Shown here: positions 7,465 to 36,550 of the stretch, piece by piece
How positions within the stretch are numbered: position 1 is the stretch's first letter
Layout of the letters: the number at the start of each line of letters is the position of its first letter
From: Candidatus Kapaibacterium sp.
GTDB taxonomy: Bacteria > Bacteroidota > Ignavibacteria > Kapaibacteriales > UBA2268
Assembly: GCA_026418625.1 (NCBI GenBank)
Contig: JAOABA010000050.1
Span: 1 to 36,550, forward strand
DNA: 36,550 nt
Direction: 5' to 3'
Notes under the pieces: generated by a model
Database searches by the model: none
Told to the model about the DNA's origin: nothing
What the model saw: only the letters and a program-made list of their open reading frames with translations
Translations under genes and position numbers: made by a program

Positions 7465-7471
7465 TTCCTTT
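7465..7471 (-). promoter_or_regulatory. Ribosome binding site deciding the start at 7459
   Basis: On the minus strand AAAGGAA lies five bases upstream of ATG 7459. It overlaps the stop codon of the Cys-rich small gene (TAA 7472-7470), so translation of the big secreted protein may be coupled to it. The longer reading frame from 7558 would run through that gene and put 33 residues before the signal peptide, so 7459 is the start. Confidence 0.7.
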
Positions 7472-7664: not shown

Positions 7665-7689
7665 TTTGCATCTTTGAATATTAATAAAT

Positions 7690-8145: not shown

Positions 8146-8174
8146 ATTATTCAATTTATGATTAATAACAGAAA

Positions 8175-8777
8175 TTAATCACATTTGGCTAAAGGTTTAT
8201 AAATAGAATTTGGATATTTTTGATTAAATTCATCAAAAATTTTATAAGCTCGTTCCCTTGCATTCAAGATACAATATAGCTGCCCCAAGCGAACTAAGAC
8301 CTTTTCTGAAATTGATTCGGGTTTGTTTTCTATATTTCTTAAGTCATTAAGGAGTATTTCGGCAACCGAGTAATCATTATATTCAATTAAGCATTCAGCA
8401 TAGAAAAACGAAGCTTCAAGTTGAAGGGAATCGCCTTTCTCAAGCGTGTTCATTAGTAATTTAAAGTCGTTACAGGCATTTTTAAAATCCTTCCTGTCAA
8501 ATTTTTCTAAAGCATTATCAAAAATTTCAGAAAGATAGTCATAGTATTCATTTTTTGTATTACTGTCGGTATTATCTAATTTTATCTCTTTATCTTGATT
8601 GAGTAAAATATCTTTTTTTTGTTGAGGGATGGGTTCTTCATCAATTATTTTTTTCGACTTATCATCAATAACCTCATTTGTTGTATCTGTTTTATTAGTT
8701 ACTACAGGATATCTTGTTCTGACGGGAGAACAAGCATAAATAACAACAAGAAAAAATATAGTAAAAAATATTTTCAT
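8175..8777 (-). CDS. Lipoprotein with TPR-like C-terminal region
   Basis: This 200-residue predicted lipoprotein starts with MKIFFTIFFLVVIYACSP: a hydrophobic signal followed by a lipobox-like IYAC, so Cys16 would be lipidated. A low-complexity, charged linker (about 20-75) precedes a helical region (about 78-200) with tetratricopeptide-like helix pairs, for example FDNALEKFDRKDFKNACNDF and ASFFYAECLIEYNDYSVAEI. The layout resembles YfiO/BamD-like or YbgF-like TPR lipoproteins but is shorter than BamD, so I do not assign it to the BAM complex. It is the first gene of the minus-strand run ending in the T9SS propeller gene. A TATATTTG -7 box lies about 33 bases upstream. Location is inferred as the outer-membrane inner face or periplasm. 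Confidence 0.75.
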   Translation of the reverse strand: MKIFFTIFFLVVIYACSPVRTRYPVVTNKTDTTNEVIDDKSKKIIDEEPIPQQKKDILLNQDKEIKLDNTDSNTKNEYYDYLSEIFDNALEKFDRKDFKNACNDFKLLMNTLEKGDSLQLEASFFYAECLIEYNDYSVAEILLNDLRNIENKPESISEKVLVRLGQLYCILNARERAYKIFDEFNQKYPNSIYKPLAKCD

Positions 8778-15700: not shown

Positions 15701-15963
15701 TTAGGAATAGTTCCATCGGGATTAAGTCTTGTCTCCCAGAAGTGCTCCCAACGCTTGAATTGTTTCCAGCCTCCCTTTCTTAATGTATCAGGAATATCTT
15801 TCCAAATTTCTTCTATTTTATCTCTCATTTGATAAAAATTGTCATTTTTACTGAGTTGGACTGATTGAAGACTTGGCTGAGCCTTAATTTCGTTGGATAA
15901 CTGGAAAAAGGTTAAAATTGATAAATTAATTAATATGATTAATTTAGTAAGATTTTTTAACAT
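12730..15963 (-). CDS. T9SS-exported giant BNR protein with Ig-like modules (1077 aa, copy A)
   Basis: This is a predicted surface or secreted protein. The N-terminus has a signal peptide (hydrophobic core near 8-22, IKAQ near 29). The conserved region WKALGPFTNPPPPSGG to GRVNIMRFHPTKPRTIW leads into a beta-propeller of Asp-box repeats (TTDEGASW, TTDGGITW, STDMGETW, SDGGKRW, TYDGGTTW). Two Ig-like or PKD-like modules follow (about 790-960), each with ICKGDSV-like and WSNGETTKR-like motifs, and a third PKD-like segment carries YQWYFNGKPI. The last 77 residues, from ITPNPSSGRF at 1001, form the T9SS type A sorting domain, ending SGVYYIVIRSKGIEFNDKLIKF-like. It is paralogous to the next gene along the minus strand (16074-19295), with which it is tandem. 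The molecular role is unknown; adhesion or glycan binding is plausible. Confidence 0.9.
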   Translation of the reverse strand: MLKNLTKLIILINLSILTFFQLSNEIKAQPSLQSVQLSKNDNFYQMRDKIEEIWKDIPDTLRKGGWKQFKRWEHFWETRLNPDGTIPNVAKYLNSYFDFINNSKRNSLLSKVEWKALGPFTNPPPPSGGDDKGVGRVNIMRFHPTKPRTIWAGAASGGLWYSNDFGRTWAEFPFTQFLSLGISDIQFCQDNPRIAYVATGDANGIGGGGGNSYSIGVLKTTDEGASWTVTNLAFSLNSQQVVAKLFVHPNYPNIVVAATSSGIYKTTDGGITWINKNNQGYFKDLVAKPGNPNVLYAATYGSNPSIYKSTDMGETWNSVHQVNGANRIALAVTPANNKNIYALCSTTPFHSFRVSYDEGATWTVASSNSGNTPNILGRDDGTGNDRNVGQGWYDLCVAVAPWDDKEIFVGGINIWKSKDGGFNWEHITHWYGGYNKPLVHADIHYLIYDEVSGDLFATNDGGIDRTSDGGKRWITVDEGMNITQFYRLGVSYTNPNMIIAGSQDNGTSMLVNGSWKKMYGGDGMECAIDPTNANNIYLSIYNGNLYRTSNGSTFSTMLSRSTTGENGAWVTPFLISPHNPDKLIAGYSNVWASWNNGRQWKKISNFSGSTLRSLAFAPSDSNTIYAATLNTIYVTYDGGTTWKNITNPQTSLITYIAVDQKNHKRIWITNGGYSAGSKVFEYDGTTWKNISGNLPNVPVNTIVYQNNSPDRLYIGTDIGVFYSDYGSAFWEPYGQGMPYLIISELEIHYPTKKIRAATYGQGIWEAPIIECNVPQPKVRIIGETKICKGDSVIIEAEDNYPTYQWSNGETTKRIIIKESGTYSLTIDDGSGCKSRSQSIEVTVLPLPDLTIRTVGKHPVCEGDSINLELSGSLGFTSYEWSTGEKTRRIQIKSLGEYTLTATTSEGCKAIAKFNVVTAPKPQKPTITRLSPVILQSSEAKSYQWYFNGKPIKDSTSRTITITELGDYSVEIFDENNCSNLSEPYNIISNVNDLIDNNIIQITPNPSSGRFFIHLSKPIEDEFVIEITNILGKQVFYSKYFSINQSSFTVDLTNIPSGVYYIVIRSKGIEFNDKLIKF

Positions 15964-16012
15964 TGTAATATCTCAAATTAATATAAACGAATTTTTAACA
16001 TAACTATTTCGC

Positions 16013-16033
16013 AATAATGTATAACACATTATT
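16013..16033. promoter_or_regulatory. Inverted repeat upstream of the 15963 gene (possible operator)
   Basis: AATAATGT-ATAAC-ACATTATT has perfect eight-base arms and a five-base centre, about 50 bases upstream of the copy-A start and in the 110-base gap between the two paralogues. It could be an operator or a hairpin. AT-rich composition makes chance palindromes fairly common, so confidence is low. Confidence 0.35.
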
Positions 16034-16073
16034 CATACAAATAGTTACACGGAACACCAAAAAATGTTGGATT

Positions 16074-19000
16074 TTATTTGTTTATAAGCAGCTTATCTAC
16101 AATTATTTTACCTGAAATATTTAATTGTAAAATATAAATTCCAGAGTTCAATTTTTCTGTGTCAATCATCAAATCATTATCGATAAATCCAATATGATTG
16201 TATTCAAACACTTTTAGACCGGTTAAATTGAATATTTTTATATTAAATTCTTTATCCTGCAAAAATTCTTTTCTAATAAAAATGGTATTATCTGTTGGGT
16301 TAGGATAGAAAAATTTGTTATCAGAAAATATATTTTCTTCAACTGAAGTCATTTTGAAATAATATTTATCTGAGATATTTTTACAGTTTTCCTGATTAGT
16401 GATTTCTACTTGATAATAACCATCCTTTTTGGGCGTATAAGTCTTACTTCTTGCCAACGGAATAATACTTCCATCTAAATACCATTGATAAGCAAAAGCA
16501 TCACTTGATATTAAAACATTATCTGATTGAGTAATAGTTGGTTTTTCAGGAGCTGGTTTCATTGTAATGTCAATGAATGCAGTCCTTTGACAATTTTGAC
16601 TTGTAGTAGCAGTAACAGAATATCTTCCGGGCTTAGTAACTGTTATTCTTCGGGATGTTTCTCCAGTTGACCATTTTATAGAAGTATAAATTATCTGAAT
16701 TCCTGAAATTTCAACATTTTCACCCTCACAGGCATTATCTGATGGTGTTGCTTTCAAAGTTATTTCTGGTGCGGGATTTACTTCTATAGTGATATCAAGT
16801 GAGCGAGCTGAACAACCCTCTTTGTCTGTAACGAAAACATAGTATGTCCCTGCAGTTTTAACCCATATACTCTTAGTGGTTTCTCCATTTGACCAGCGAT
16901 ATGCGGCATAATTGCCAGTGCATTCTATTAAAACCGAATCACCTTCACAAATTGATTTATTTCCTTTTAAGGAAATTTCTGGAATAGGTATATTACAATC
17001 AATTATTTTTGTCTGCCAAAGTCCTCTGCCATAAGTTCCAGCTCTTAATAGACCACTACCTGAGGGAATTTCGAGGTCATTAACAATTACATTAGGAAGA
17101 CCATCATTAAAAGGAACCCAATAAGGTTTCAAATTATCCCTTGTAAAAACACCAATGTCTGTTCCAATAAACATTCTACCGGGAGAATTTTTTTGATAAA
17201 CTATGCAGTTAACTGGCACATTTGGTAGTGAATCACCAATGTTTGTTTGTTGAGTTCCTTCAAACTCATATACCTTATAATCCTGATTATAACCTGAAAA
17301 TGTAAGCCAAAAACGCATTGGAGAAAGTGGATCAACAGCAATACCAGTTATAGCAACAGGTGCTCTGAATACTTCAGTCCAAGAAGTTCCCCCGTTAGTT
17401 GTTCTAAACATTTGATTGAATGCACCAGCGTAAATTACATTAGGATTAGAAGGAGCTACTGCCAGTGTCCTAAAATTTCCTCCAACGAAATTTGATATTT
17501 TATTCCAAGTTAGCCCTCTATCGGTTGATTTCCAGATATTTTGCAATCCAACAAAAAGTATTTTGGGGTCGGTTGGATGAATTACAATTGGAGAAACCCA
17601 AGCTCCTTTCTCTTTAGAAATATTTGAGTCAAGCATAGTAGTGAAGGATAATCCGCCATTAGTTGACCTTGTGAATTCACCATAATATAGAGACGCATAC
17701 ATATATTTAGGGTCTGAATAGTCAATAAGACAACTCATACCATCACCACCTTGAACATTTTTCCAAACAGCGTCACCATAAATATGAGTTCCGTTATCTT
17801 GTGTCCCTCCTATTAAAATATTTGGATTTGTAGCAGAACTATTGATTTTATAGAATTGAGAGACATCAAGACCATTACTAATATCAGTCCAACTAATTCC
17901 ATCATTTGTTGAATACTGAACACCCCCATCATTGCAGGAAAAAAGAATATTGTTATAATCATAACCAAGAAAGTGATGGTCGGCATGAACCCAAGGATGA
18001 ATTTTATTATCTCTCCAACTTGTTAAAAGCTTCCATTGAACACCGCCATCAGTGCTCTTCCAAATATTAATGCCTCCAACATAAATTTCGTTCATATTTC
18101 TATTTGAAACCGCTATACATAAATCATAAAAACCCTGACCACCGGGAGATTTACCATCATCCTCGAAGCTAAGAATATTTGGTGAATTCAGTCTATTAGA
18201 TGGATTTGTCCAGTTGTTACCGCTGTTTGTAGATAGCCAAAATGAATGAAATCCTCCATCCATAGCAGCCGCAACGGCATAAACATAGTTAGGGTTAGCT
18301 TTAGAGACTGTCAAAGCAATACGGGAAACGTCAGTAAATTCGAGAACCTTATTCCAAGTGTTGGTTGCAGTGCTGAATTTTTTTATAGTGTAAGTATTTG
18401 GTGGAGTGATAAAAGCACCATAGAGAGTAGCAAATTCATTTGGTTTAAATTCCAAATCTCTACAGTATTCATTAGTTAACATTGTCCAATTCTGCCCACC
18501 ATTTGTTGAAGCATAAACACCAGCATTTGACGCAATAACGACTATGTCTGGATTTGTTGGATTCACTAATACTCTATTAATCAAAACAAAATTATTTAAA
18601 TTTGCTATTAATCCAGTTCTCGACCAAGTGTTTCCACCATTAGTTGTTTTTATAACTCCGATACTGAAACCAAAATTTTGTCCCATAACCCCGGCAGCGT
18701 TTGCATCACCGGTTGCAGCATAAACAATATTAGGATTTGAGGGAGCAACAGCTATGTCTGAAATACCTATAGAAAGAAACTCAGTGAATGGAAAGGTCTG
18801 CCAAGTCATACCTCCGTTATTTGTTTTCCAAACACCACCAAAAGCAGCCCCAGCCCAAATAATATTAGGATTCAACGGATCGAAAGCAACACAGTTGATA
18901 CGACCAAGACCAGAAGGTGCTAACTGAGGATGTTTCTGAGGCATTCTGTTTGGACCTAATGGTTTCCAATCGGCTTTGTTTTGTAATAAAATGTCAGTCT

Positions 19001-19295
19001 TTTGATTTTCGCTTAGTTTTTCATAATCTAGAATTATTTCAACAAGATTTGGAATTTCGCTATTTGGAAATAACCTCTGTTCAAGGAAGTATTCCAGTCT
19101 CTTGAACTGCTTCCAACCTCTGCCTTTTGACGGAATTTTATCTGACCAATAATTATTAAAATCATTTTGTATTGTTTCAAATTTTAGTTGATTGTGGTAA
19201 TAGTTTCCGTTCAACCAAGGTTGAGAAGATAAAGTGAGATTTGTAAAAATTATAGCAAGAGTTATTAAAAAAATTGAAGTTATTATTTGTTTCAT
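16074..19295 (-). CDS. T9SS-exported giant BNR protein with Ig-like modules (1073 aa, copy B)
   Basis: This is a tandem paralogue of the 1077-residue protein, with the same order of parts. There is a signal peptide (IITSIFLITLAIIFTNLTLS, then SQ), the block WKPLGPNRMPQKHP to GRINCVAFDPLNP, and Asp-box propeller repeats (TNNGGMTW, TTNGGNTW, STNGGQNW, STDGGVQW, TTNGGTSW). Two Ig-like modules with ICEGDSV and RWSNGETTKS follow, then a YQWYLDGSII PKD-like segment. The T9SS sorting domain begins at FYPNPTDNTI (996) and ends in the SGIYILQLNISGKIIVDKLL region. It is 110 bases upstream of the other copy. The 152-base 5' region toward the divergent 205-residue gene contains a -7-like TATATTTG on the minus strand. 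Both copies probably have related ligands; which ones is unknown. Confidence 0.9.
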   Translation of the reverse strand: MKQIITSIFLITLAIIFTNLTLSSQPWLNGNYYHNQLKFETIQNDFNNYWSDKIPSKGRGWKQFKRLEYFLEQRLFPNSEIPNLVEIILDYEKLSENQKTDILLQNKADWKPLGPNRMPQKHPQLAPSGLGRINCVAFDPLNPNIIWAGAAFGGVWKTNNGGMTWQTFPFTEFLSIGISDIAVAPSNPNIVYAATGDANAAGVMGQNFGFSIGVIKTTNGGNTWSRTGLIANLNNFVLINRVLVNPTNPDIVVIASNAGVYASTNGGQNWTMLTNEYCRDLEFKPNEFATLYGAFITPPNTYTIKKFSTATNTWNKVLEFTDVSRIALTVSKANPNYVYAVAAAMDGGFHSFWLSTNSGNNWTNPSNRLNSPNILSFEDDGKSPGGQGFYDLCIAVSNRNMNEIYVGGINIWKSTDGGVQWKLLTSWRDNKIHPWVHADHHFLGYDYNNILFSCNDGGVQYSTNDGISWTDISNGLDVSQFYKINSSATNPNILIGGTQDNGTHIYGDAVWKNVQGGDGMSCLIDYSDPKYMYASLYYGEFTRSTNGGLSFTTMLDSNISKEKGAWVSPIVIHPTDPKILFVGLQNIWKSTDRGLTWNKISNFVGGNFRTLAVAPSNPNVIYAGAFNQMFRTTNGGTSWTEVFRAPVAITGIAVDPLSPMRFWLTFSGYNQDYKVYEFEGTQQTNIGDSLPNVPVNCIVYQKNSPGRMFIGTDIGVFTRDNLKPYWVPFNDGLPNVIVNDLEIPSGSGLLRAGTYGRGLWQTKIIDCNIPIPEISLKGNKSICEGDSVLIECTGNYAAYRWSNGETTKSIWVKTAGTYYVFVTDKEGCSARSLDITIEVNPAPEITLKATPSDNACEGENVEISGIQIIYTSIKWSTGETSRRITVTKPGRYSVTATTSQNCQRTAFIDITMKPAPEKPTITQSDNVLISSDAFAYQWYLDGSIIPLARSKTYTPKKDGYYQVEITNQENCKNISDKYYFKMTSVEENIFSDNKFFYPNPTDNTIFIRKEFLQDKEFNIKIFNLTGLKVFEYNHIGFIDNDLMIDTEKLNSGIYILQLNISGKIIVDKLLINK

Positions 19296-25697: not shown

Positions 25698-28019
25698 ATG
25701 AAAAAATATACCATTAAATTAATTCTGCTAATTTTAATTTTTTTTTCCTACCAAAATTCTCATTCACAGGTTGGTAGATGGAGAATGTTAATTGACAAAG
25801 CAACTTTTGATGTTGCTGTAAATCCTAAAAATTATAATACAATCTACGCTGGAGGTGAGGGTGGGAATTTTTATCGTTCCTACGATGGAGGACTTACTTG
25901 GACCAACCTCAGAGCTGATTTTACATTTCAATCATCAAGATTAAATAATGTCATTCCCCATCCAGAAGATACAAATCGAATTCTCATAGGAGGCTTACTT
26001 TTCGGAAAAGTTCAAATGACAACAAATCAGGGAAATACTTGGAAGACGGTTCTAACTTCAGAAACTCCTATTGAATTAAACGGAAAATCGATGCACTTCA
26101 AACCCGGTTCGAAGGATACCGTTTATGCCGGAGATGTTCGTCGCGGAGTAATTTATCGCAGTATTGACGGGGGAAGTAATTGGGACTCAATTTCAGTAAT
26201 AACAAGGAAGTATCGCTATAGAAATCAAAGTGGTGAGTGGGTATCTGCTATTCTCCCATCAACTATAGGTGCTTTTAATATTAGGACAGACAGTGCAAAC
26301 ATAATAGTTGTTGGTAGTATGTCGGGTGAGGTTTTTATTTCAACTGACGGCGGCTTTACTTGGAATTTTACCGACCAATTAACAAAAATCATTTATCCCC
26401 CCTTTGATAAAGACTGCGAAGTAACGAGAGTAGTTTTTAGTGATCGAGACCCACGAGTTGGCTATATCGTAATTACATACTTGATTAAAGGTAATTTCCC
26501 TAATGGTGGACTTCATAAAACCACTGACGGTGGCTACAATTGGGATTTAGTAGCTTTCCCTGACACAAGTCTTTGGGCTTGTGACACAAGAAAATTTGGC
26601 GACGAAGATGAAGTATTTATTGGTGGCTACACTGAGCATTTTTTTGTTCCTGAATCTCAAAGGGTTCCGGGTGCTGGAATACTGAGAGGTTCACAAGATG
26701 GCGGAAAGACTTGGGCAAATTATGACAACTTAATTAACTGGGCTATCGATTCTTCACATAATGCCTCACTTTTTGGAATGCATTTCCCTTCAAATGATAC
26801 AGGATTTGTTGTTGGCGAAAAAGGACGAATATTAAGAACTCGAGACGGTGGGAATAACTGGTCTGATGTTGATGTAATTTCTACAAATACTTTAAAAACT
26901 GTATATTTTTTGGATGGAAGAAAAGGCTTCCTTGCTGGAGAAAATGGTTTAATAATGTCAACTGAAAACGGCGGGATCACTTGGAAAAATCTAAATTCAG
27001 GTGTCACAGATAAAATAAATAACATTAAATTTACTAACTTTAATTCAGGTTTTGCTGTTTGTGATAATGGAACTATTTTAAAAACAACTGATTCAGGAAA
27101 TAATTGGTTTAAACTGAATTCAGGCACAAACGAAAATTTATTTTGTGCTTATTTTCTTAACGATAACATTGTTTTTGCTTCGGGTAATAATGGTGTTTTA
27201 TTAAAAACAGTAGATGGTGGAAATAATTGGCAAAGAATTGATTTACAACGAACTGATTCATTAAATTCTATTTACTTTACAGATTCAAAAACTGGTTATA
27301 TTTGTGGTCAAAACGGTTTAATACTCAAAACAACTGATGGTGGCGATAATTGGCAAGCTCTGGATACTCAAACCAACTTGGGTTTATATTCAATTCATTT
27401 TCCAACAAAAAGTATTGGATTTGCGGGGGGAGTTAAGGGTTTAATTTTCAAAACTACTGATGAAGGTGATACTTGGACTTCTATTGAAACAGAATTCGAA
27501 GGGAGAACTATTTATTCCTTACATTTTTCTAATGAAAACTATGGAACAATCGCTGGTCATCTTTTCTCTTTGTCTATGACTACAAATAGTGGCAAGACTT
27601 GGGAAAATAAACGCTGGGGGTATAATCATATTTCAAATATGTGGTCATTTAGATTTTTTGGTGAACCGGGTAGAGAAAAACTCTATCTCGCATCAGAAGC
27701 AGGATTATTTGTTCTTGATTATTCCACAGATATAGATTCAAGAAGATTAATTTCAAAAGATGGGTATTTAAAAATTTATCTGACAAAAGATAATTACTTA
27801 TTTCTCAAATACCATAGAAATGATTACATTTCAAATGAATTTATTAAATTCAGAATAGTTGATATAATGGGCAGAGAGGTCTATTCCAAACAATTTTTCA
27901 ATACAAATTCCAATGATTTTGAATCTTTTATCAAAATACCTAATCTGGTTAATGGGGTTTATATTTGTCAATTGTTCGATAAAGACCTAATTTTTACCGA
28001 AAAAATAATAATTGAATAA
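25698..28019 (+). CDS. T9SS-type secreted protein with YCF48/BNR propeller repeats (773 aa)
   Basis: This protein is exported by its signal peptide (KYTIKLILLILIFFSYQ, then SHSQ). The middle is a propeller of repeated units with a GFVVGEKGRILRTRDGGNNW form: GFLAGENGLIMSTENGGITW, GFAVCDNGTILKTTDSGNNW, GYICGQNGLILKTTDGGDNW and GFAGGVKGLIFKTTDEGDTW. These match YCF48/photosystem-II-stability-factor-like repeats. Earlier Asp-boxes (SYDGGLTW, STDGGFTW, TTDGGYNW) form a first propeller. The last 85 or so residues resemble the T9SS sorting domain (FRIVDIMGREVYSKQFF, LVNGVYICQLFD, EKIIIE), but the usual YPNP entry is absent. It sits 67 bases downstream of nuoN, so readthrough is possible. The stop is three bases from the convergent purF stop. 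Role unknown. Confidence 0.87.
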   Translation: MKKYTIKLILLILIFFSYQNSHSQVGRWRMLIDKATFDVAVNPKNYNTIYAGGEGGNFYRSYDGGLTWTNLRADFTFQSSRLNNVIPHPEDTNRILIGGLLFGKVQMTTNQGNTWKTVLTSETPIELNGKSMHFKPGSKDTVYAGDVRRGVIYRSIDGGSNWDSISVITRKYRYRNQSGEWVSAILPSTIGAFNIRTDSANIIVVGSMSGEVFISTDGGFTWNFTDQLTKIIYPPFDKDCEVTRVVFSDRDPRVGYIVITYLIKGNFPNGGLHKTTDGGYNWDLVAFPDTSLWACDTRKFGDEDEVFIGGYTEHFFVPESQRVPGAGILRGSQDGGKTWANYDNLINWAIDSSHNASLFGMHFPSNDTGFVVGEKGRILRTRDGGNNWSDVDVISTNTLKTVYFLDGRKGFLAGENGLIMSTENGGITWKNLNSGVTDKINNIKFTNFNSGFAVCDNGTILKTTDSGNNWFKLNSGTNENLFCAYFLNDNIVFASGNNGVLLKTVDGGNNWQRIDLQRTDSLNSIYFTDSKTGYICGQNGLILKTTDGGDNWQALDTQTNLGLYSIHFPTKSIGFAGGVKGLIFKTTDEGDTWTSIETEFEGRTIYSLHFSNENYGTIAGHLFSLSMTTNSGKTWENKRWGYNHISNMWSFRFFGEPGREKLYLASEAGLFVLDYSTDIDSRRLISKDGYLKIYLTKDNYLFLKYHRNDYISNEFIKFRIVDIMGREVYSKQFFNTNSNDFESFIKIPNLVNGVYICQLFDKDLIFTEKIIIE

Positions 28020-28022: not shown

Positions 28023-29510
28023 TTATTCCTCAGTTGAAAATTTTGTGTGGTTTTCTTCTATTTCAACTGGATAATTGCCTGTGAAACAAGCAGTGCAATA
28101 ACCAACATTTTTATCTTTTGGCACTGAGTCAATCAATTTTTCAATAGATAAATACTTCAAATTATCTACTCCAATAGCTTTTCCTATCTCTTCTTCAGAT
28201 TTATGATGATTGGCAATCAGTTCTTCTTTACTCGGAAAATCCATCCCATAATGGCAGGGAAACTTAATTGGTGGAGAAGTAATTCTCATATTTATTTCTT
28301 TAGGATTAGCCTCTTTAATTAAACTTATTAAAGAACGTGAAGTTGTTCCTCTAACGATAGAGTCGTCAATTACAACAATTCTCTTTCCTTCGATAACACC
28401 TTTAACAGTATTAAACTTGACTTTAACCTTGAACTCCCTATTATCTTGTCCGGGAGAAATAAAAGTTCTTCCGACGTAATGGCTCCTTATCAAACCAATA
28501 TCATAATCAGTTGGATTACCTTTTTCAGTATTGATCTTTGCAAAGCCTAAAGTAGCTGTATTTCCACTATCGGGAACAGCAAAGGCAGTAAGCTTATCTT
28601 CTTCAGTTGCTTCAACAGGACTTTCGTCAGCAAGTGCTTTACCTAATTTTCTGCGAACCTTATCAACGTTGTGATTAAAAATCTTACTATCCGGCCTTGA
28701 AAAATATATATATTCAAATATGCAATGTCTCGATTCTGGTGTTTCTTCAACAATTTTATAAGTTTTCATTTCACCTGTTTTTATAGTATCGTTATTAATC
28801 ACAACAATTTCGTTATGATTAACAGATCGAATATATTCCGCTCCGATGATATCAAATGCACAAGTTTCGGAAGCAACTATGTAAGAATAGGTATCATTAT
28901 ATTTCAATCTGCCTATACTAAGAGGTCTAAAACCAAGTGGGTCTCGTGCTGCTATCAGAGAATCTTCTGTTAAAATCACTAAAGAATAAGCTCCTTTTGC
29001 TTGTCTTAGAGCTTCAATGATTTGATCAATTTGATTCTTTTGCTTGCTTCTTGCAATTAAATGAAGCAAAATTTCAGTGTCAGTAGTAGTTTGAAATATC
29101 GCACCCTCAGAATCAAGATAATTTCTTAGGGTCATTGTATTAGTTAAATTACCATTGTGCGATAATGACAATATACCACCATGATAAGTTATAGTAAAGG
29201 GTTGAATATTTGCTCTTGTGGAGGAGCCAGTAGTAGAATAACGGTTATGCCCAATAGCAGAATCACCTTTTAATACGTTAGTTAGAATATCTGGATTTGA
29301 ATATACTTCCAAAACCAGACCTTCCCCTTTATTATATGCATATTTTTTCTTTTTTTTCTTTTCGTCATAATAAAAAGATGTTATTCCAGTAGCTTCCTGT
29401 CCCCTATGTTGTAAAGAATGAAGAGCATAGTAAGTTAATATTGCAGCTTTTGGGTGATTAAAAACTCCAACAATACCACAATTAGACTTGGGTTTATCAA
29501 TTTCAGTCAT
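28023..29510 (-). CDS. purF: Amidophosphoribosyltransferase
   Basis: This enzyme catalyses the first committed step of purine synthesis, PRPP plus glutamine to phosphoribosylamine. The 495-residue protein begins with a ten-residue propeptide, then Cys11 (CGIVGVFNHP), the N-terminal glutaminase nucleophile after processing. LSHNGNLTNT and HNRYSTTGSS are glutaminase motifs. The PRPP loop is VVIDDSIVRGTTS (379-391). C263, C419, C472 and C475 (GYCTAC) are in the 4Fe-4S positions of the Bacillus-type enzyme, so this is probably an iron-sulfur PurF. A run of six lysines at 51-56 is unusual. The gene is convergent with the secreted-protein gene (three bases apart) and divergent from the W-repeat genes, with a palindrome between. 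Confidence 0.96.
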   Translation of the reverse strand: MTEIDKPKSNCGIVGVFNHPKAAILTYYALHSLQHRGQEATGITSFYYDEKKKKKKYAYNKGEGLVLEVYSNPDILTNVLKGDSAIGHNRYSTTGSSTRANIQPFTITYHGGILSLSHNGNLTNTMTLRNYLDSEGAIFQTTTDTEILLHLIARSKQKNQIDQIIEALRQAKGAYSLVILTEDSLIAARDPLGFRPLSIGRLKYNDTYSYIVASETCAFDIIGAEYIRSVNHNEIVVINNDTIKTGEMKTYKIVEETPESRHCIFEYIYFSRPDSKIFNHNVDKVRRKLGKALADESPVEATEEDKLTAFAVPDSGNTATLGFAKINTEKGNPTDYDIGLIRSHYVGRTFISPGQDNREFKVKVKFNTVKGVIEGKRIVVIDDSIVRGTTSRSLISLIKEANPKEINMRITSPPIKFPCHYGMDFPSKEELIANHHKSEEEIGKAIGVDNLKYLSIEKLIDSVPKDKNVGYCTACFTGNYPVEIEENHTKFSTEE

Positions 29511-29682: not shown

Positions 29683-30597
29683 ATGTTATTTTCTGACATT
29701 TATAAACTTTCGAGAAAACATCCTGAATCCACTGAAATCTGGATTTATGAGAAACACAAAGAAGACAATACCATAGAATTTGAAAAGCTCATTGCAAAAT
29801 ATAAAAACTATAATCAATTACAGGAAAAAATCATACAGAAATCAATAAAAGATGATTTTTTAAATGATTATCGTTTCGTTTATGATTATGATGTAAATGG
29901 TAATGAGATTTCCGTTCATAGTTATAATTGGGTTGAAAATGATTGGATAAATAACACTAAAACCATAAAAAATTACAATAGTGAAGGATTTTTAGAAGAA
30001 ACCACAATGTTTTTATGGGACGGAAATGAATGGATAAATCAACTCAAAACAAACTACGAATACGAAGAAAACGGTTTAATATCTTTAGTTAAAGTTTTTT
30101 CTTGGGAAATGAATGAATGGAAATTAAAATATCAAACTTATTATAATTTTATATCTGGTAGTGAAGTTGAAAAGGTTACTATAAAACCTAACCAAAACGA
30201 TTTTGTTTATTCTGAAAAAGAAATCACAAAATTTGATAACAATGGCAATGAAATTGAAAAAAGCTTCTTTGAGTGGAAGGACGAAGAATGGAATGAAAAA
30301 TCTATGGAAGAAAAAATTTACTATCCAAATGGACTGATAAAAGAATGGATTATCAGATTATTTATGGATGATATGTGGGTTAATGATGAAAAAGAAGAAT
30401 ATTTTTATGATGACTTTGGAAGATTGATTGAATGGAAATCATCAAAATTAGAATTTGATGAATGGATTTATCAAACAAGATGTAAATATAATTATAATGA
30501 AGATGGTGAAATAATTGAATTCTTTACTGAAGATTATCGTAATGATGTTTGGATATTGACTTTTAAAGGCATTAGACAAAATCTTATAACAAATTAA
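29683..30597 (+). CDS. W-repeat protein without export signals (304 aa)
   Basis: This protein contains tandem repeats of roughly 35-40 residues built on a Y-x-NNGNEIE / W-x-(D/N)-x-W-x pattern, for example NGNEISVHSYNWVENDW, GFLEETTMFLWDGNEW and NGNEIEKSFFEWKDEEW, similar to secreted YD-like/W-repeat proteins of Bacteroidota. The N-terminus is MLFSDIYKLSRKHPESTEIW, with no signal peptide, and the C-terminus ends without a sorting domain, unlike the paralogue that begins 11 bases later. It therefore looks like a truncated or cytoplasmic copy from a tandem duplication. The start is at ATG 29683; no plausible upstream leader exists in another frame. Co-transcription with the next gene is likely. 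Function unknown. Confidence 0.72.
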   Translation: MLFSDIYKLSRKHPESTEIWIYEKHKEDNTIEFEKLIAKYKNYNQLQEKIIQKSIKDDFLNDYRFVYDYDVNGNEISVHSYNWVENDWINNTKTIKNYNSEGFLEETTMFLWDGNEWINQLKTNYEYEENGLISLVKVFSWEMNEWKLKYQTYYNFISGSEVEKVTIKPNQNDFVYSEKEITKFDNNGNEIEKSFFEWKDEEWNEKSMEEKIYYPNGLIKEWIIRLFMDDMWVNDEKEEYFYDDFGRLIEWKSSKLEFDEWIYQTRCKYNYNEDGEIIEFFTEDYRNDVWILTFKGIRQNLITN

Positions 30598-30608
30598 CTG
30601 GTGTTCAA

Positions 30609-31838
30609 ATGAAAACAATTTTAAAAACAACTGCCGTTTTCTTTTTTTTGACACAATTAGTGCTTTTTTCAAATGAAAAGCAACTTAATAATTTTTCGAA
30701 TGTTTGGTATTCTCAAGTATGGGAATTCGAACAGTGGAAACATCAGGCAAAACATACAAGGGTCTTTAATGATAATGGCAATATAATTGAGCATATTATA
30801 CAAGAACCAGATGTAAAGAATAATTGGATAAACAAATACAAAATTGAATATGGTTATAATGAAAAAGAACTTTTAACTAATATCATTACTTATGTTTGGG
30901 ATAATGAAAACTGGAGAAGCTCAACAAAGCTCGACATAATTTATAATGATAAAGACCTCATTAAAGAAAGAAACTTCAAATTATTTAAAGATGATAAGTG
31001 GGAAAATGATGTTCAATTTGCTTATGAATATTCCCAAACAGGTAAAGTTACACTCGAAACATTTTCAAGATGGAATGACAACGATTGGCAACCATACACC
31101 AAATTAATCTATCAGTATGATTCTTTGGATTTAAACACTGAAATTCTCAATACTAGATTTTTAGATTCAGTCTGGGTCAATTATGGTCTAACTCTAAACT
31201 TCTACAATTTGGAAAAATTATTAGTTAAGTCAACTTTGTTTGGTTGGGATTTATCAAAAAAGGCTTGGTTAAATTATGAACAAAATCTTTATAGTTATGA
31301 TGACAAATCAAGGTTAATAGAATGGATAAATCAACAAGGTGATAATGATGTCTGGTTCAATACCACACGTGAAACCTACGAATATACTGATTTTGGAAGC
31401 TTGTTTCAAATTGTCAAGTATCGCTCAGGAAACGATGAATGGAAAAACTCAATTCGTATAACGTATCTTTATGACAATAAAGGAGATAGCTTAATCATTT
31501 TGATGGAAGAATGGCAATTTGATAATTGGGTAAATAAGGAACGAAGAATAAGGGAAGATATGATTTCAACTGTTTATGAAGAGAATGAGCATTTCGTTTT
31601 GATTTATCCAAATCCTACAGATAAAGAATTTAGAATAAATTTCGGAAATCAATTTTATCCATATAAATCTTATGAAATTTTTAATTTATCAGGTGAGAGC
31701 GTTCAAAAGGGAAATTTAGATTATTTTTCACCATCAAGTAGTCTCATAAATGTTTCAAATCTAACTTCAGGCATTTATCTAATAATTCTCAAAAGAAACG
31801 GGCTTGAAAGAGCTTTAAAATTTTACATTAACAGATAG
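30609..31838 (+). CDS. T9SS-exported W-repeat protein (409 aa)
   Basis: This is a predicted secreted protein. The signal peptide is TILKTTAVFFFLTQLVLFS, followed by about seven W-repeats with WINK/WRSS/WQPY/WVNY/WFNT motifs and tyrosine-rich turns (YGYNEKELL, YEYSQTGK, YSYDDKSRL). The C-terminal 78 residues, from IYPNPTDKEF at 332, form the type A T9SS sorting domain, with SGIYLIILKRNG at the end. It is a paralogue of the preceding 304-residue protein, which lacks both export parts. It ends one base before the convergent GNAT-like gene. No catalytic motif; repeats of this sort may make a rod-like binding surface (inference). Confidence 0.82.
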   Translation: MKTILKTTAVFFFLTQLVLFSNEKQLNNFSNVWYSQVWEFEQWKHQAKHTRVFNDNGNIIEHIIQEPDVKNNWINKYKIEYGYNEKELLTNIITYVWDNENWRSSTKLDIIYNDKDLIKERNFKLFKDDKWENDVQFAYEYSQTGKVTLETFSRWNDNDWQPYTKLIYQYDSLDLNTEILNTRFLDSVWVNYGLTLNFYNLEKLLVKSTLFGWDLSKKAWLNYEQNLYSYDDKSRLIEWINQQGDNDVWFNTTRETYEYTDFGSLFQIVKYRSGNDEWKNSIRITYLYDNKGDSLIILMEEWQFDNWVNKERRIREDMISTVYEENEHFVLIYPNPTDKEFRINFGNQFYPYKSYEIFNLSGESVQKGNLDYFSPSSSLINVSNLTSGIYLIILKRNGLERALKFYINR

Positions 31839-31839: not shown

Positions 31840-32970
31840 TTAAATATCCTTTTCATAAAGCCTATATACTTTATATCTTTCAGCATTCATTGATATGGTT
31901 AAACCCTTTATCATAGGCTCGTTGTCTTCCAAAACCCACGAAGCTTCAGCCCATTTAAATCCGGCTTTTACTCCTCTTTCCCCAAGTTCATAATATATAA
32001 CCCCATCAATTCCACTTTTCTGATATTCAGGTATCAAACCGAGTGCTAAAATTCTCATTGATTGAATTTTGTTTTTATAGAGCATTGATAAAAATAATGC
32101 TCCTAAAAGGCTGCCTTTTTTATTTTTAATCAAATATTCATTTATATTTGGAACAGCAATACCAAATCCAACAGGGGTTGAATTTACTTCAGCTATTATA
32201 ACAAGTGATGGATTTGCAATCATTTTCAAATCATCAGCAATAAAGTTAAATTCTTCATCGGTCCATTTGACAAAACCCCAATTAGGAACCCAAGCTTTGT
32301 TATAAATTTCTTTAAATGTTGAGATATCCTTCATAAATTGGGCTTTGTTTTTCATATCAAGCTCTCTTATAGTCAAATTATATCTTTCCCGAATTATTGC
32401 CTGAAGTCTTTGGACTTTATCGGTTTTGTAGCTTGAGGGTGTCAGTTTAAATGCATACAAATCCTTTGCTTTTTTATACCCACTATTTTCAATCAAGTTT
32501 ATGTAGTATTCAGGATTATATGTTGATAAAATAACCGGTGGAGAATCAAAAGCGTTAATCAAAAGACCTACTTCATCATTCATCGAGGGGTTCTCCGGTC
32601 CGATAACTTTGTTTTTACCTTTTTCTTTTAACCAGCTTTCAGCATAAGAAAAAAGCTCATCAGCGACATTCTGATTATTAATACATTCAAAAAAGCCAAA
32701 AAATCCTGTATTATCATTATGTGTCTTGTTATGATTATCATTTGTTATTGCTGCAATTCTACCAACAACATCTCCATTATTATTTTCGGCATAGAAAAGT
32801 TGAATCTCTGAATGTTGATAAAAAGGATTTTTTTTAATATTGAGCAGCTTCTTCCTATCAAATATAATAGGAGGAACCCAATTTTTATCGTTTTTGTAAA
32901 AATTCCATTGTGATTTTATAAAAATATCTTTTTTCTTTTCTGAATCGACTTTCACAATCTTAAAATTCAT
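31840..32970 (-). CDS. GNAT-like N-acetyltransferase family protein
   Basis: This 376-residue protein is related to the E. coli YghO-type family, which carries a degenerate N-terminal half and a GNAT acetyltransferase fold. The N-terminal block is WVPPIIFDRKKLLNIKKNPF, then PENPSMNDEVGLLINAFD. The C-terminal acetyl-CoA-binding-like segment is ALGLIPEYQKSGIDGVIYYE. The substrate is unknown. It is the last gene of a minus-strand run with the asparagine-synthase-like and DUF985 cupin genes, 26 bases behind the latter, and has a good AGGA site 8-9 bases before ATG 32970. Its role with these is unclear; peptide or amino-sugar modification is possible (inference). Its stop is one base from the convergent T9SS gene stop. 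Confidence 0.78.
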   Translation of the reverse strand: MNFKIVKVDSEKKKDIFIKSQWNFYKNDKNWVPPIIFDRKKLLNIKKNPFYQHSEIQLFYAENNNGDVVGRIAAITNDNHNKTHNDNTGFFGFFECINNQNVADELFSYAESWLKEKGKNKVIGPENPSMNDEVGLLINAFDSPPVILSTYNPEYYINLIENSGYKKAKDLYAFKLTPSSYKTDKVQRLQAIIRERYNLTIRELDMKNKAQFMKDISTFKEIYNKAWVPNWGFVKWTDEEFNFIADDLKMIANPSLVIIAEVNSTPVGFGIAVPNINEYLIKNKKGSLLGALFLSMLYKNKIQSMRILALGLIPEYQKSGIDGVIYYELGERGVKAGFKWAEASWVLEDNEPMIKGLTISMNAERYKVYRLYEKDI

Positions 32971-32996
32971 AATTATTTCCTGTTATTTTAAATAAG

Positions 32997-33518
32997 CTAC
33001 TCATTAGAAAAAATAATAATCAAATCATATAAATGAGGATAATTTTTGAGCATAAAATCTCGGTTTGCTATTTCAAGGTCCGAAAACTCAAAACCCGGAG
33101 CGACTGTGCAACCAACAAGAGAATATGAATTATCAAAAATTGGGGTTGCAGCTATCCAAGAATTAGCAGGAATACCAACCTGAAATATTTCGTTTTTCTC
33201 AAAATCATTGCCTAATATGAAAGTATGAAATTCATTATTTGGATATATAGATAATAATTTTAGGGGTGAACCTGCAAAAAAATGCCAAATTTCATCAGAT
33301 TTTATTTTATGAAACAGTGATTTCTGACCACTTTTTAGTAAATAATAAATTGAAGTGAGGAAACACCTATCGGAATTATAGGAATTTGGTAAGTTTTCTT
33401 TTTTTATAGTATTTTTGCTTCTATATATCTCAGTAAAATAACCACCTTCGATATGTTGTTGTAGTCTGAGCTTTTCAATCCAATATTCAGCATTTTTTAA
33501 TGAGTTTATCTCATTCAT
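32997..33518 (-). CDS. DUF985 (Cupin_5) family protein
   Basis: This is a small cupin of 173 residues. The family features are EYWIEKLRLQQHIEGGYFTE at the N-terminus, TSIYYLLKSGQKSLFHKI, DEIWHFFAGSPLKL, and GCTVAPGFEFSDLEIANRD near the C-terminus. His and Glu residues in FHKIKSDEIWHFF may bind a metal. The RmlC-like fold suggests a sugar or metabolite-binding role; the substrate is not known. ATG 33518 is used rather than TTG 33521: an AAAAGGA site lies seven bases before the ATG. It overlaps the upstream asparagine-synthase-like gene by eight bases (ATGAATGA), so the two are coupled. Confidence 0.87.
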   Translation of the reverse strand: MNEINSLKNAEYWIEKLRLQQHIEGGYFTEIYRSKNTIKKENLPNSYNSDRCFLTSIYYLLKSGQKSLFHKIKSDEIWHFFAGSPLKLLSIYPNNEFHTFILGNDFEKNEIFQVGIPANSWIAATPIFDNSYSLVGCTVAPGFEFSDLEIANRDFMLKNYPHLYDLIIIFSNE

Positions 33519-35349
33519 CAATTAATCCTTTTCTAAATAACTCAAATGCTAATAACCAGTCCATTTCCCTCTCTGCTTTTGGTATGCCCCTTTTAAAATC
33601 TAAATATATTTTGTTAATTTTTTTCTTATCATAAAACTCAAAATTAACAAAAGTTAAAGAATTAATTAAATCTTGAATAAATTCATTCAGTTCATTCAAT
33701 AACAAATTTCTATAAGAAAAGGTTTTGTGAGGAAAATATGAGAAAATTTTCTTTTTAAGAGATATAGACAAGGATGAGTAAGAAAAAGGAATTTTAATTC
33801 CACCCGCATTTAGAGGGTATTTATCTAATCTTCTTCTATTTTTTTTGAATACTTTTTTTAATAGACTTCCATTTCTTTTAATTTTTGGATTAGAAGAAAA
33901 AATTAAATCAAAAAAATCAGGTTGAACAAATGGTGAAAAGCTTCTTACTAAATTATCTATTCTTGTTTGCTCTATTCCCACTAGATTCGGTTGTTTGGTT
34001 CTGATAGCAAAAAGATCCAGCCAAGAATCCAAAGTAAAATTATCAAAATCAGGCATTTGAGAAAGGCATCTTTCTAAGTGCTCTAAAGCTCCTTCTTTAA
34101 AAGTTCTATTTATTTCTTCATTGAAAATATCAGAATGAGGATACTGCATATAATCAAAGAAAACATTTCCATTTCTATTAAAAATGTCATTTCGAGCAAA
34201 TGTTATTAGTCGTTTGAAAAGTGATCTACGAGTTATTTCCCCCCAGCAACCATCAATAATAATAAAATCTTGATTTGTGAAATAGTTATAATTTCTCTTT
34301 AATAAAAATTCTGAGGCTGGAAATGTTAATTTAGTATTTACAATAAAATTCCTTAAATCAGATATAGTATTATCATTTAATTTAAAGTCTTCAAATAATA
34401 CTTGATGCTTAAACCCAACTTTCTTACTTATTTCAGAGGGAATTTCTATATCTAAGTCGTTAGGAAGACCAAATGAAAAAGTATCAAAAAATGAATAATG
34501 ATAATACTCAAAAATATTTTTATAATCGAAAATATCCTGCAAGACCGACAGTAAAAGCCTTGAGTCCATCCCCCCTGACAATGCTAAAAAAATTTGTAAA
34601 TTTTCATTAATAGGCAAAGAAACCAATTCAAAAAGCTTTTGATAGAGTGTCTCTTCATTAATATCAAAATATATTTTTGGTGTCCAAGGCTTTTCTTCGT
34701 AAGATATTTCGAATTTGTTAATGAATTTTGCTATTATTTTACCGGAACTTGTTAATCTTTTTATTTTTTTAATAAAACTACCAGTATTTATTTGACTCTC
34801 AAGAAGCCATAAAGAGCCCATTTCTTTAAAATCAAACTCGATTTTTCCTAAGTATTTTGTAAGAAATTCCAATCTTGTCGAAAAAATAAAATGATCATCT
34901 GTTTGATTAAAAAAAACATCCCTTGTGCCTAATTGATCTGTGAAAATTCTGATTTCATTATCATTAAAAATTATTGAACAGAAATGACCATTAACCTCAG
35001 AATAATTATCGTGGGTATTTTTGAAAAAATCTATCCAATCCTTTTCTTTCATTAATGTATATGAACCACTATCATTTAAAATCCCAAGTCCAGCAGAGAC
35101 CCAATGATAAATGTGAGCTTGTTCATCATAAAAATCTTTTTCTATTTGAAATTCGGTATTTGAGAAAGGAAAATCACCATAAAAAAGTGTTTTACCGTCA
35201 CTACCGGCAGCTATCCAAAAATTTCTTCCTTCTAATTTAAAGTTAGTTTTTGAATTAGAATGAAATTTCGATTGACCTTTTATTATTTGCTCTAATTTAT
35301 TTTTTATTTTATCATCAATATTTCCAAATGCACCAAATATCCAACTCAT
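33511..35349 (-). CDS. Asparagine-synthase-like protein with a glutaminase domain lacking Cys2
   Basis: This 612-residue protein has an AsnB layout. The N-terminal half (about 1-190) matches the class II glutaminase domain, with GHFCSIIFND and FTDQLGTRDVFF, and the C-terminal half is the ATP-pyrophosphatase/synthetase domain. The PP-loop SGGMDSR is at 258-264. The glutaminase normally begins MCGI with Cys as nucleophile; here it begins MSWIFGAFG, so it cannot hydrolyse glutamine by the standard route and may use ammonia or have another acceptor. Several EPS-cluster and peptide-modifying enzymes are of this type. Cupin and GNAT-like genes overlap or follow it. A TATATTTA box with TTG 23 bases upstream precedes it (weak). 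The exact acceptor is unknown. Confidence 0.85.
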   Translation of the reverse strand: MSWIFGAFGNIDDKIKNKLEQIIKGQSKFHSNSKTNFKLEGRNFWIAAGSDGKTLFYGDFPFSNTEFQIEKDFYDEQAHIYHWVSAGLGILNDSGSYTLMKEKDWIDFFKNTHDNYSEVNGHFCSIIFNDNEIRIFTDQLGTRDVFFNQTDDHFIFSTRLEFLTKYLGKIEFDFKEMGSLWLLESQINTGSFIKKIKRLTSSGKIIAKFINKFEISYEEKPWTPKIYFDINEETLYQKLFELVSLPINENLQIFLALSGGMDSRLLLSVLQDIFDYKNIFEYYHYSFFDTFSFGLPNDLDIEIPSEISKKVGFKHQVLFEDFKLNDNTISDLRNFIVNTKLTFPASEFLLKRNYNYFTNQDFIIIDGCWGEITRRSLFKRLITFARNDIFNRNGNVFFDYMQYPHSDIFNEEINRTFKEGALEHLERCLSQMPDFDNFTLDSWLDLFAIRTKQPNLVGIEQTRIDNLVRSFSPFVQPDFFDLIFSSNPKIKRNGSLLKKVFKKNRRRLDKYPLNAGGIKIPFSYSSLSISLKKKIFSYFPHKTFSYRNLLLNELNEFIQDLINSLTFVNFEFYDKKKINKIYLDFKRGIPKAEREMDWLLAFELFRKGLIDE

Positions 35350-35440: not shown

Positions 35441-36205
35441 ATGACCGAAGAGCTGCAAGATAAAAGCGAAAATCCAGAAGAAAATCAAAAGGAAATGAGC
35501 TTTTTTGATCATTTAGAGGAATTAAGATCTAAAATTATCTGGTCACTGGTAGGTTTAATTATTGGATGTATCATTGCAGGTATTTTCATTAATCAAATAA
35601 TGGATAATTTCCTTCTTCGTCCTGCTGTCTCAGTTGGATTAAAACTGCAGAACCTAAGACCCTTTGGACAACCATTTTTCTATTTTAAAGTAATATTGGT
35701 TTCTGGGATAATTATATCATTTCCCTTTATGATTTATCAGCTTTGGTCATTTATTGAGCCGGGACTTTACACAAGGGAAAAAAGATGGGCAAAAAGAATC
35801 ACTTTTTTTACCAGTTTATGCTTTCTTTCTGGAGTAGCTTTCTCCTATTTTGTTATGATTCCTTCGATGCTGAATTTTGCTGCTATGTTCGGGTCGGATA
35901 AAATAGCCAACATAATTGATATTAACGAATACTATAGTTTTATCGTTATGATTTTACTGGCAGCTGGCATACTTTTCGAAATGCCGATGGTGGCATTTGT
36001 TTTATCAAGGTTCGGGATAATATCAGTTAAAACAATGAAAAGGTATAGAAGACATTCAATAGTTGCAATTTTAATACTCGCAGCTGTTTTAACCCCAACC
36101 CCCGACCCTATCTCCCAATTAATATTTGCCTCACCTTTATTTATTTTATACGAAATTAGTATTGTTATTGCCAAAATTGGAGAAAAAAAATACCTTAAAG
36201 GTTAA
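35441..36205 (+). CDS. tatC: Sec-independent protein translocase TatC
   Basis: TatC is the receptor subunit of the twin-arginine translocase, which exports folded proteins such as cofactor-containing redox enzymes. The 254-residue protein has the conserved SFFDHLEELRSKIIWSL N-terminal block, a ring of about six transmembrane segments, the FWxF-like IYQLWSFIEPGLYTREKRW motif, and AGILFEMPMVAFVLSRFG with its conserved Glu. The C-terminal PTPDPISQLIFASPLFILYE is also diagnostic. There is no tatA or tatB beside it. The 20-residue charged N-terminus is a normal extension. It is followed, 112 bases later, by a polyprenyl synthase gene. Confidence 0.95.
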   Translation: MTEELQDKSENPEENQKEMSFFDHLEELRSKIIWSLVGLIIGCIIAGIFINQIMDNFLLRPAVSVGLKLQNLRPFGQPFFYFKVILVSGIIISFPFMIYQLWSFIEPGLYTREKRWAKRITFFTSLCFLSGVAFSYFVMIPSMLNFAAMFGSDKIANIIDINEYYSFIVMILLAAGILFEMPMVAFVLSRFGIISVKTMKRYRRHSIVAILILAAVLTPTPDPISQLIFASPLFILYEISIVIAKIGEKKYLKG

Positions 36206-36317: not shown

Positions 36318-36550
36318 ATGACAATTAATGAGATAATTCAGCCGGTAGAAAAACACATTGATGATTTTGACAAGTATTTTAAAAAGCTGATGAAGTCTAA
36401 GGTTTCACTCTTAGACATAATTATTCAATATCTCAATAAACGTAGAGGCAAAAGAATAAGATCTTCAATTGTTTTTCTTGTTTCTGAACTATGTGGAGGT
36501 GTTAATGACCGTTCCTACGATGGTGCAGCAACTGTCTCTTATACACATCT
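36318..36550 (+). CDS. Polyprenyl diphosphate synthase (5' part, truncated by the window end)
   Basis: ATG 36318 opens a reading frame that continues to the end of the window (77 codons). The translation has LNKRRGKRIRSSIVFLVSEL, the conserved GKR/R block of trans-prenyltransferases, and ATVSYTHL, which leads toward the expected HDDVVD metal-binding motif beyond the window. It would make the octaprenyl or longer diphosphate chain for quinones, or undecaprenyl-type lipids. It follows tatC by 112 bases. The first Asp-rich motif is not visible, so the exact chain length is unknown. Confidence 0.85.
   Translation, partial: MTINEIIQPVEKHIDDFDKYFKKLMKSKVSLLDIIIQYLNKRRGKRIRSSIVFLVSELCGGVNDRSYDGAATVSYTH

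Follow-up and report, generated by a model that had tools for sequence, protein, structure and literature searches.

One pathway or two modules?

Do three closely packed genes on the minus strand of a Kapabacteria contig make up a single pathway, or have two unrelated modules come to lie side by side? The genes occupy positions 31840-35349 of a 36,550-nucleotide stretch of Candidatus Kapaibacterium sp. (GenBank assembly GCA_026418625.1, contig JAOABA010000050.1, positions 1 to 36,550), which we call the window; the genome holding it is G000, and G001 is its sole congener in our comparison set. An earlier note, made from the sequence, had described an operon of a Cys-less asparagine synthase, a DUF985 cupin and a GNAT-like protein. 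From homologies, predicted folds, conserved residues, pathway genes and synteny counts we favour, at a probability of roughly 0.6, two unrelated modules: a cupin with a putative bacterial ceramide synthase (bCerS), and an orphan amide ligase. On present evidence the array is real and was correctly described, and the synthase does appear to be a distinct Cys-less branch of its superfamily, but the three genes were wrongly joined into one pathway. Open reading frame (ORF) analysis confirmed all three genes, arranged as follows.

33511-35349, minus strand: synthase, 612 aa, beginning Met-Ser-Trp
34558-34578, minus strand: SGGMDSR ATP-pyrophosphatase loop, synthase residues 258-264 (position computed from the ORF start)
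34225-34254, minus strand: DGCWGEITRR motif, synthase residues 366-375 (family consensus DGGFGEIxRR)
33805-33807, minus strand: codon gcg of Ala515, in a column that is Lys in 71/75 family members
33511-33518, minus strand: overlap of synthase stop and cupin ATG, ATGAATGA, 8 bases (11 if the cupin starts at TTG)
32997-33518 from ATG (33521 from TTG), minus strand: DUF985/Cupin_5 cupin, 173 aa, immediately 5′ of the acyltransferase
31840-32970, minus strand: GNAT-like acyltransferase, probably of the YghO/bCerS/Aca family, 376 aa, with a tandem-GNAT predicted fold

The overlap of eight bases that had been reported is thus exact when counted from the cupin ATG, and the gap between cupin and acyltransferase is 26 bases. 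AAGG/AGGA stretches that look like ribosome-binding sites by eye lie ahead of the cupin and acyltransferase starts. Homologues of all three proteins are present in other genomes, and between G000 and G001 the proportion of nonsynonymous differences in the synthase (pN) is 0.25, that of synonymous differences (pS) 0.68; therefore the array is coding and not a product of chance. A defence-system reading was rejected: none of the three had a PADLOC match at E up to 0.1.

Gene order around the synthase

We sought the three genes in the 60 nearest genomes, own included, and found the acyltransferase in 56, the cupin in 17 and the synthase in 16 (16 of 54 in the family alone). Synteny was judged on the union of matches at E up to 1e-20, comprising 15 genomes, 14 besides our own. 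One weaker match (G036, 3e-12) was left outside the count, and has neither cupin nor acyltransferase beside it; the matches in G005 and G022 were counted as ordinary AsnB, the same ORFs being matched by E. coli AsnB. In all 11 assessable relatives (G007, G008, G010, G012, G015, G016, G025, G031, G050, G214 and G215) the gene 3′ of the synthase is neither the cupin nor the acyltransferase. In three more (G001, G011 and G014) the synthase region ends at contig breaks, where the order is undecidable. The three-gene order, whose conservation had been proposed as a check, is therefore kept in 0/11 assessable relatives and, those three at contig breaks aside, was intact in no other genome viewed. 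The claim that the overlap and the close GNAT-like gene signify one pathway is thus not supported.

Two neighbouring genes help to explain the arrangement.

28023-29510, minus strand: purF-like gene with GATase and phosphoribosyltransferase domains (Pfam)
35441-36205, plus strand: tatC, next to the synthase in G000 and G001 and divergent from it

Genus g25 has the order purF, three genes, synthase, and then divergent flippase-like, tatC and polyprenyl-synthetase-like genes. Its cupin-acyltransferase pair lies on another contig (the contigs of G214 and G215 run through, the region in G025 is in two pieces at contig ends). In these three genomes tatC thus stands by the synthase with the flippase-like gene between. 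On the other side, the acyltransferase has purF next to it or one ORF away in 5/29 other loci (L043, L051, L055, L058 and L059), all belonging to other families, and in G011 the two are directly adjacent. Both modules therefore have separate histories around purF and may have met in the window without a common function; we infer that the adjacency of synthase and pair reflects a shared purF-tatC neighbourhood and not a shared function.

Several observations weigh against two modules. The eight-base overlap and the 26-base gap look like an operon. In G011 one contig ends with purF, acyltransferase and cupin, and another with the 3′ end of the synthase; these ends fit the window's three-gene order in orientation, without an exact overlap. 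In G001, where the contig carries synthase and tatC and ends inside the synthase, no cupin or acyltransferase was found. Lastly, in a Melioribacteraceae metagenome-assembled genome (locus L148, JALSTI010000059.1) the synthase lies one opposite-strand gene from a cerR-spt-bcerS-like cluster, in 1/80 synthase loci viewed. The overlap and gap, the G011 contig ends and L148 would all suit a single operon in which the ligase forms an amide on a sphingolipid (or on a precursor of it), with the fatty acid added by the acyltransferase and the cupin assisting. We consider such an operon unlikely: the synthase lacks the pair as neighbours in every assessable relative, g25 keeps the synthase in its place without them, and the acyltransferase is far more widespread than the synthase (56/60 vs 16/60). 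Moreover, the intervening gene in L148 is on the opposite strand, and 0.31 such loci are expected by chance against the one seen (1.10 Mb of flanks in total, assumed genome of 3.5 Mb). A more specific version, with the ligase drawn into sphingolipid synthesis to join a carboxylate such as an amino acid to a sphingoid amine or head group, in one operon with cupin and ceramide synthase, strikes us as highly improbable; if true, it would mean an undescribed amide-modified sphingolipid in this Kapabacteria lineage.

The acyltransferase and sphingolipid genes

The GNAT-like protein itself has no Pfam match. In its alignment, however, 17 of the 18 members match Acetyltransf_1 (E up to 0.1, best 1.8e-9), and the top Foldseek matches of the predicted structure (mean pLDDT 88.1), extending across both halves, include tandem GNAT proteins and glucosamine N-acetyltransferase. 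A single-sequence search of the PDB gave nothing relevant and a profile search only weak GNAT matches, at E 0.08 and up. The predicted fold therefore resembles a tandem GNAT, in line with the GNAT-like label of the earlier note, but the role proposed there, acetylation of the ligase's acceptor, is not borne out: the protein is better explained as a member of the bacterial ceramide synthase family. It is 34-35% identical to E. coli YghO (35% over 372 aa), a full-length homology, and 48% identical to the L148 homologue. A study touching on rhodobacterial sphingolipids groups yghO (ECD_02850) and Caulobacter CC_1154 under 'aca', the name of the acyl-CoA N-acyltransferase in dihydroceramide synthesis (PMC9386255), and bCerS is described elsewhere as a cytoplasmic peripheral membrane enzyme acylating 3-ketodihydrosphingosine (PMC11087976). 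We read these two sources together as meaning that CC_1154 and bCerS are one gene. The neighbours of yghO in E. coli 300709 are genes for Spt, an acyl carrier protein, an epimerase/dehydratase-family protein and a fatty acyl-AMP ligase. In L148 a compact cerR-spt-bcerS-like cluster spans 4872-8314 with the homologue directly after spt, and makes a helpful reference for work on how Ignavibacteria make sphingolipids.

As with YghO/Aca/bCerS of E. coli and C. crescentus (CC_1154), sphingolipid genes are found in the same genome as the window's acyltransferase. The Spt of G000 (contig C15) is 66% identical to that of L148; its best NCBIfam model is serine palmitoyltransferase CFB, at 481 bits, below the cut-off of 640. 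A CerR-like protein (C25) is 44% identical to that of L148 at 313 bits, the next best in the genome reaching 41. Neither gene is clustered with the acyltransferase, which sits with a DUF985 cupin, unlike the YghO/bCerS genes clustered with spt or cerR. Such dispersal has a parallel: spt, cerR and bcerS are reported as not close together in sphingolipid-producing Bacteroidota (PMC11334938), and G000 is likewise. We hypothesise that the acyltransferase acts as a cytoplasmic bCerS, moving a fatty acyl group onto the amine of 3-ketodihydrosphingosine. Spt would make the sphingoid base, and the CerR-like reductase would complete the ceramide, both being encoded elsewhere in G000.

Across 60 genomes of the order, the acyltransferase scores above 200 bits in 55 and Spt above 240 bits in 57, with both in 54. 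Only the acyltransferase passes in G047, only Spt in G001, G023 and G038, and neither in G014 and G028 (G014 has a 113-bit Spt fragment). The joint presence of strong matches points to a sphingolipid-making potential in Kapabacteria. Three points count against the ceramide synthase assignment. The CerR assignment rests on the L148 gene, whose own identity to the epimerase-like gene of E. coli is no more than 24%, and the acyltransferase was assigned by comparison with E. coli YghO and the L148 homologue. G000 also encodes a paralogue (C47, L172:8708-9841) 30% identical to the window copy, which could carry some of the activity. Against YghO and the L148 protein the window copy scores 206 and 351 bits and the paralogue 159 and 198; upstream of the paralogue is a gene for a short-chain reductase, and the next ORF but one downstream of it encodes a protein with MORN repeats and a caspase domain (Peptidase_C14). 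The existence of the paralogue, together with G047 and the three genomes showing the reverse, would suit a YghO-family N-acyltransferase acting on some other amine, such as an amino acid, an aminolipid or a capnine-like base. The near-complete co-occurrence with Spt in 54/60 genomes and the cerR-spt-bcerS cluster of L148 make us doubt this, and a ceramide synthase remains our preferred assignment.

The DUF985 cupin as a lineage-limited partner

Membership of the cupin in Pfam Cupin_5/DUF985 (PF06172) is clear, the score being 165 bits where the cut-off is 25. Its relatives in the PDB (1yud, 3loi, 1znp, 3m3i and 1xe7) are listed as hypothetical or uncharacterised proteins. Ten genomes of f1, the family to which the window belongs, have the cupin immediately upstream of the acyltransferase and on the same strand, window included. 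Seven of these are among the ten cupin-bearing f1 genomes of the nearest 60 (G000, G011, G012, G019, G022, G025 and G033, the cupin of G012 being split over two contigs); the pair is not adjacent in G002, G020 and G034. Three more (G207, G214 and G215) come from further f1 genomes, only some of which were covered for the cupin. In other families 0/7 cupin-bearing genomes among the nearest 60 have the two genes adjacent, and a general functional link between cupin and bCerS was therefore rejected beyond f1. By eye, a phylum sample of 148 genomes held no close pair besides the window's among the acyltransferase matches listed. The pair is a real but lineage-limited trait of this Kapabacteria family, to which the adjacency of DUF985/Cupin_5 and bcerS is confined in our data.

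The synthase is not a regular part of this neighbourhood. The gene upstream of the cupin varies: G019, G033 and G207 have a peptidase-like gene there, as g25 does to judge by eye, G022 an IspD-like gene (both names are sequence-based) and G012 a divergent gene. The synthase lies directly upstream in the window only, the cupin of G011 being cut by the contig end. We hypothesise that the cupin is a small accessory, probably co-transcribed. Its occurrence is lineage-limited, and most of the genomes with bCerS that we examined lack it. Literature searches gave no sphingolipid link among the matches listed for DUF985, and no mention of a cupin among those listed for cupin and bacterial ceramide. 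For DUF985 the pair gives a hint from gene context, in this one lineage.

A Cys-less branch of the asparagine synthetase superfamily

Pfam Asn_synthase matches the synthase at 22.7 bits against a cut-off of 21. The AsnB model TIGR01536 reaches 35 bits, below its cut-off of 267.1, and the albusnodin/ikarugamycin-type macrolactam cyclase model NF033561, the only cyclase model among the four NCBIfam matches at E up to 0.1, reaches 14.5 bits, below 300. No Pfam or NCBIfam model specific to the synthase was among the matches. The predicted structure (mean pLDDT 85.6), compared over its whole length with the PDB, is closest to TsnB9 (Z 24.9), followed by AsnB (20.8), CarA (20.7) and beta-lactam synthetase (20.1). 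A single-sequence search of the PDB returned nothing relevant and a profile search AsnB, a hydroxyamidotransferase and CarA. With an 11-row profile, hhalign aligned only the N-terminal half and the pyrophosphate loop to AsnB; with a 75-row profile most of the length aligned, the C-terminal part shifting between settings. The two-domain AsnB fold and the SGGxDS loop place the protein in the asparagine synthetase superfamily (N-type ATP pyrophosphatases).

The 75-row alignment comprises the window synthase and 74 locus ORFs of at least 500 aa, the eight shorter ones of an 82-member cluster having been dropped. The loci came from a scan seeded on the pattern (L/I)(S/A/G)LSGG(M/L)DSR, which covered 84,980 species at one genome per species and gave 174 candidate relatives. 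The best 80 of these are titled Ignavibacteria, Melioribacteraceae, Kapabacteria, Balneolales, Rhodothermales (Rhodothermia), Calditrichota, Cloacimonadota, KSB1 and others. Residues S258, G259, G260, D262, S263 and R264 are invariant in 75/75, in part by construction since the scan seeds on the motif; they are also invariant (11/11) in an alignment that was not motif-seeded, and the loop noted earlier is indeed kept. Further conserved residues are D300, D366 and G367 (75/75 each), E371 (71/75), R374 (74/75) and R375 (68/75). In the hhalign runs that cover it, D366 lies opposite the first Ser of the AsnB motif SGEGSDE.

The loss of the N-terminal glutaminase nucleophile holds across the family: residue 2 is Ser in the window synthase and Cys in 0/75 of the aligned sequences (Ser in 64, Gly in 8). 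In the hhalign runs covering these positions Ser2 is opposite the AsnB Cys, and Gly87 (Gly in 73/75) opposite AsnB Asn74. On the roles that we assume for these two AsnB residues, glutamine hydrolysis would be unlikely and an external amine or ammonia the probable nucleophile. The synthase can thus be described as a putative Cys-less glutaminase-type domain of Ntn fold joined to a predicted ATP-pyrophosphatase/synthetase domain, in an uncharacterised family of the Fibrobacteres-Chlorobi-Bacteroidetes (FCB) group. Identity with ordinary AsnB was rejected on the weak TIGR01536 score and the presence in G000 of a separate AsnB-type gene (C28), whose match starts at the AsnB Cys end. The protein is therefore not closer to ordinary AsnB than to its own branch, in keeping with the earlier note.

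Comparison with known relatives suggests the type of chemistry. AsnB (PDB 1ct9) has the two-domain fold and the SGGxDS loop in common with the synthase, but has Cys and Asn74 where the synthase has Ser2 and Gly87. TsnB9 hydroxyamidotransferase (PDB 7ylz), whose chemistry we take from its PDB title alone, is the best structural match over 523 residues, at 12% identity. Beta-lactam synthetase and CarA (PDB 1jgt and 1q15) have the asparagine synthetase fold with a glutaminase domain, match at Z of about 20 and, we presume, also lack the Cys nucleophile; they differ in the DGGFGEIxRR motif of the synthase family and are 11-13% identical over the structural alignment. Beta-lactam synthetases form an intramolecular amide (PMC6594144). 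No clavam or carbapenem genes were noticed near the synthase, and no search was aimed at them. By analogy with these enzymes, the glutaminase domain of the synthase would be kept as a fold only, and the SGGMDSR loop would bind the pyrophosphate of ATP. An amine, or free ammonia, would attack a carboxylate that had been activated as acyl-AMP. Amide formation that depends on ATP but not on glutamine is thus a reasonable reaction class for the family, and this part of the earlier proposal of amidation or condensation stands; an acceptor acetylated and bound by the neighbouring proteins does not. The activities of both enzymes, like the co-transcription of cupin and acyltransferase, are proposals.

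No constant partner accompanies the synthase in the best 80 of the 174 loci. The commonest immediate same-strand partner is an upstream pyruvate-phosphate-dikinase-like gene (named from sequence; 10/80 loci, six of them titled Rhodothermales, Rhodothermia or Rhodothermaceae), and the next commonest partner cluster has four loci. Homologues of bCerS, Spt and CerR (E up to 1e-20) occur in the synthase flanks of L148 only. Homologues of the window cupin occur in the flanks of 2/80 loci (L153 and L158), several kb off. In both, from uncultured Ignavibacteriae, the synthase ORF is split into two adjacent pieces, perhaps through a frameshift or as a split gene. A literature search on asparagine synthases and amidotransferases in Ignavibacteria, Kapabacteria and Rhodothermales gave nothing on this family among the matches listed, and it is in this sense, together with the want of a specific Pfam or NCBIfam match, that we call the family unnamed. 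It forms a conserved, widely spread branch of putative amide-forming ATP pyrophosphatases, marked by the DGGFGEIxRR motif. Its substrate, if found, may lead to an amide-containing metabolite or envelope part common to several FCB phyla.

Another reading likens the synthase to WbpS (PGN_1234) of Porphyromonas gingivalis, an asparagine-synthase-type amidotransferase required for the uronamide of the linking sugar of the type IX secretion system, for whose relatives the family TIGR03108 (eps_aminotran_1) is given (PMC7468200). Proteins with the Por_Secre_tail domain are encoded in the window, and the synthase might on that ground amidate a similar sugar acid. We find this scarcely credible: the synthase lacks the glutaminase nucleophile, and TIGR03108 is not among its four NCBIfam matches. 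A genome-wide search with TIGR03108 (E up to 0.001) had its best place at the AsnB-type gene on C28 (486 bits, below the cut-off of 816.9) and did not match the synthase. Identity with WbpS was therefore rejected, and an orphan amide ligase remains the reading that we prefer.

A substitution at residue 515

Among the 34 columns with conservation of 93% or more, the window synthase departs from its family in one, where Ala515 replaces a Lys found in 71/75 members. K515 is the only conserved lysine in that C-terminal stretch, and it may correspond to AsnB K449, which we take to be the counterpart of Lys-466 of human asparagine synthetase (ASNS). Lys-466 contacts the adenylate phosphate, and the lysine is called essential in AS-B (PMC6748925). 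The spacing after an NGK-like motif and helix, 22 residues to column 515 vs 25 in AsnB by eye, favours this column. With the window synthase as master, however, hhalign placed Lys519 opposite K449, and other settings and masters paired K449 elsewhere or with nothing. Residue 519 is Lys in 5/75 members; L107 and L141, which have Arg at 515, also carry Lys519, though four members with K515 have Lys or Arg at 519 too. The window copy may therefore be altered in activity or inactive, unless Lys519 serves instead.

Between G000 and G001 the nonsynonymous distance (dN) is 0.30 for the synthase vs 0.065 for tatC, with synonymous sites near saturation; the G001 contig stops ahead of residue 515. Faster change than in tatC, together with the loss of a lysine that may be essential, could mean that the window synthase is a decaying or pseudo-enzyme, which lost its glutaminase long ago, has now lost a conserved lysine too and persists in a binding or structural role. 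This is a doubtful alternative. A pN well under pS marks the gene as constrained, the frame is open over 612 codons and a single highly conserved column is altered; moreover, the residue placed opposite K449 differs between hhalign runs, and Lys519 may serve in place of K515.

Other features of the window

Tandem plus-strand ORFs with W/Y-rich repeat units (by eye) at 29683-31838 separate purF from the acyltransferase; the second of this pair matches Por_Secre_tail (a type IX secretion sorting tail) and DUF3836, and the first has no Pfam match. A large repeat protein at 4841-7558 matches Pfam Sortilin-Vps10, BNR and Por_Secre_tail, and those at 12730-19295 and 25698-28019 resemble it by appearance only. 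The final 19 bases of the window (36532-36550), at the contig end, are an exact match, and the sole one, to what we take to be the Nextera/Tn5 adapter. The contig end is thus adapter read-through, and the ORF at 36318 has a non-genomic 3′ end. At the opposite end, 186-3463 encodes a Heparinase II/III-like protein (PF07940/PF16889) followed by a flippase-like polysaccharide biosynthesis protein (PF01943), and is likely the end of a surface polysaccharide locus.

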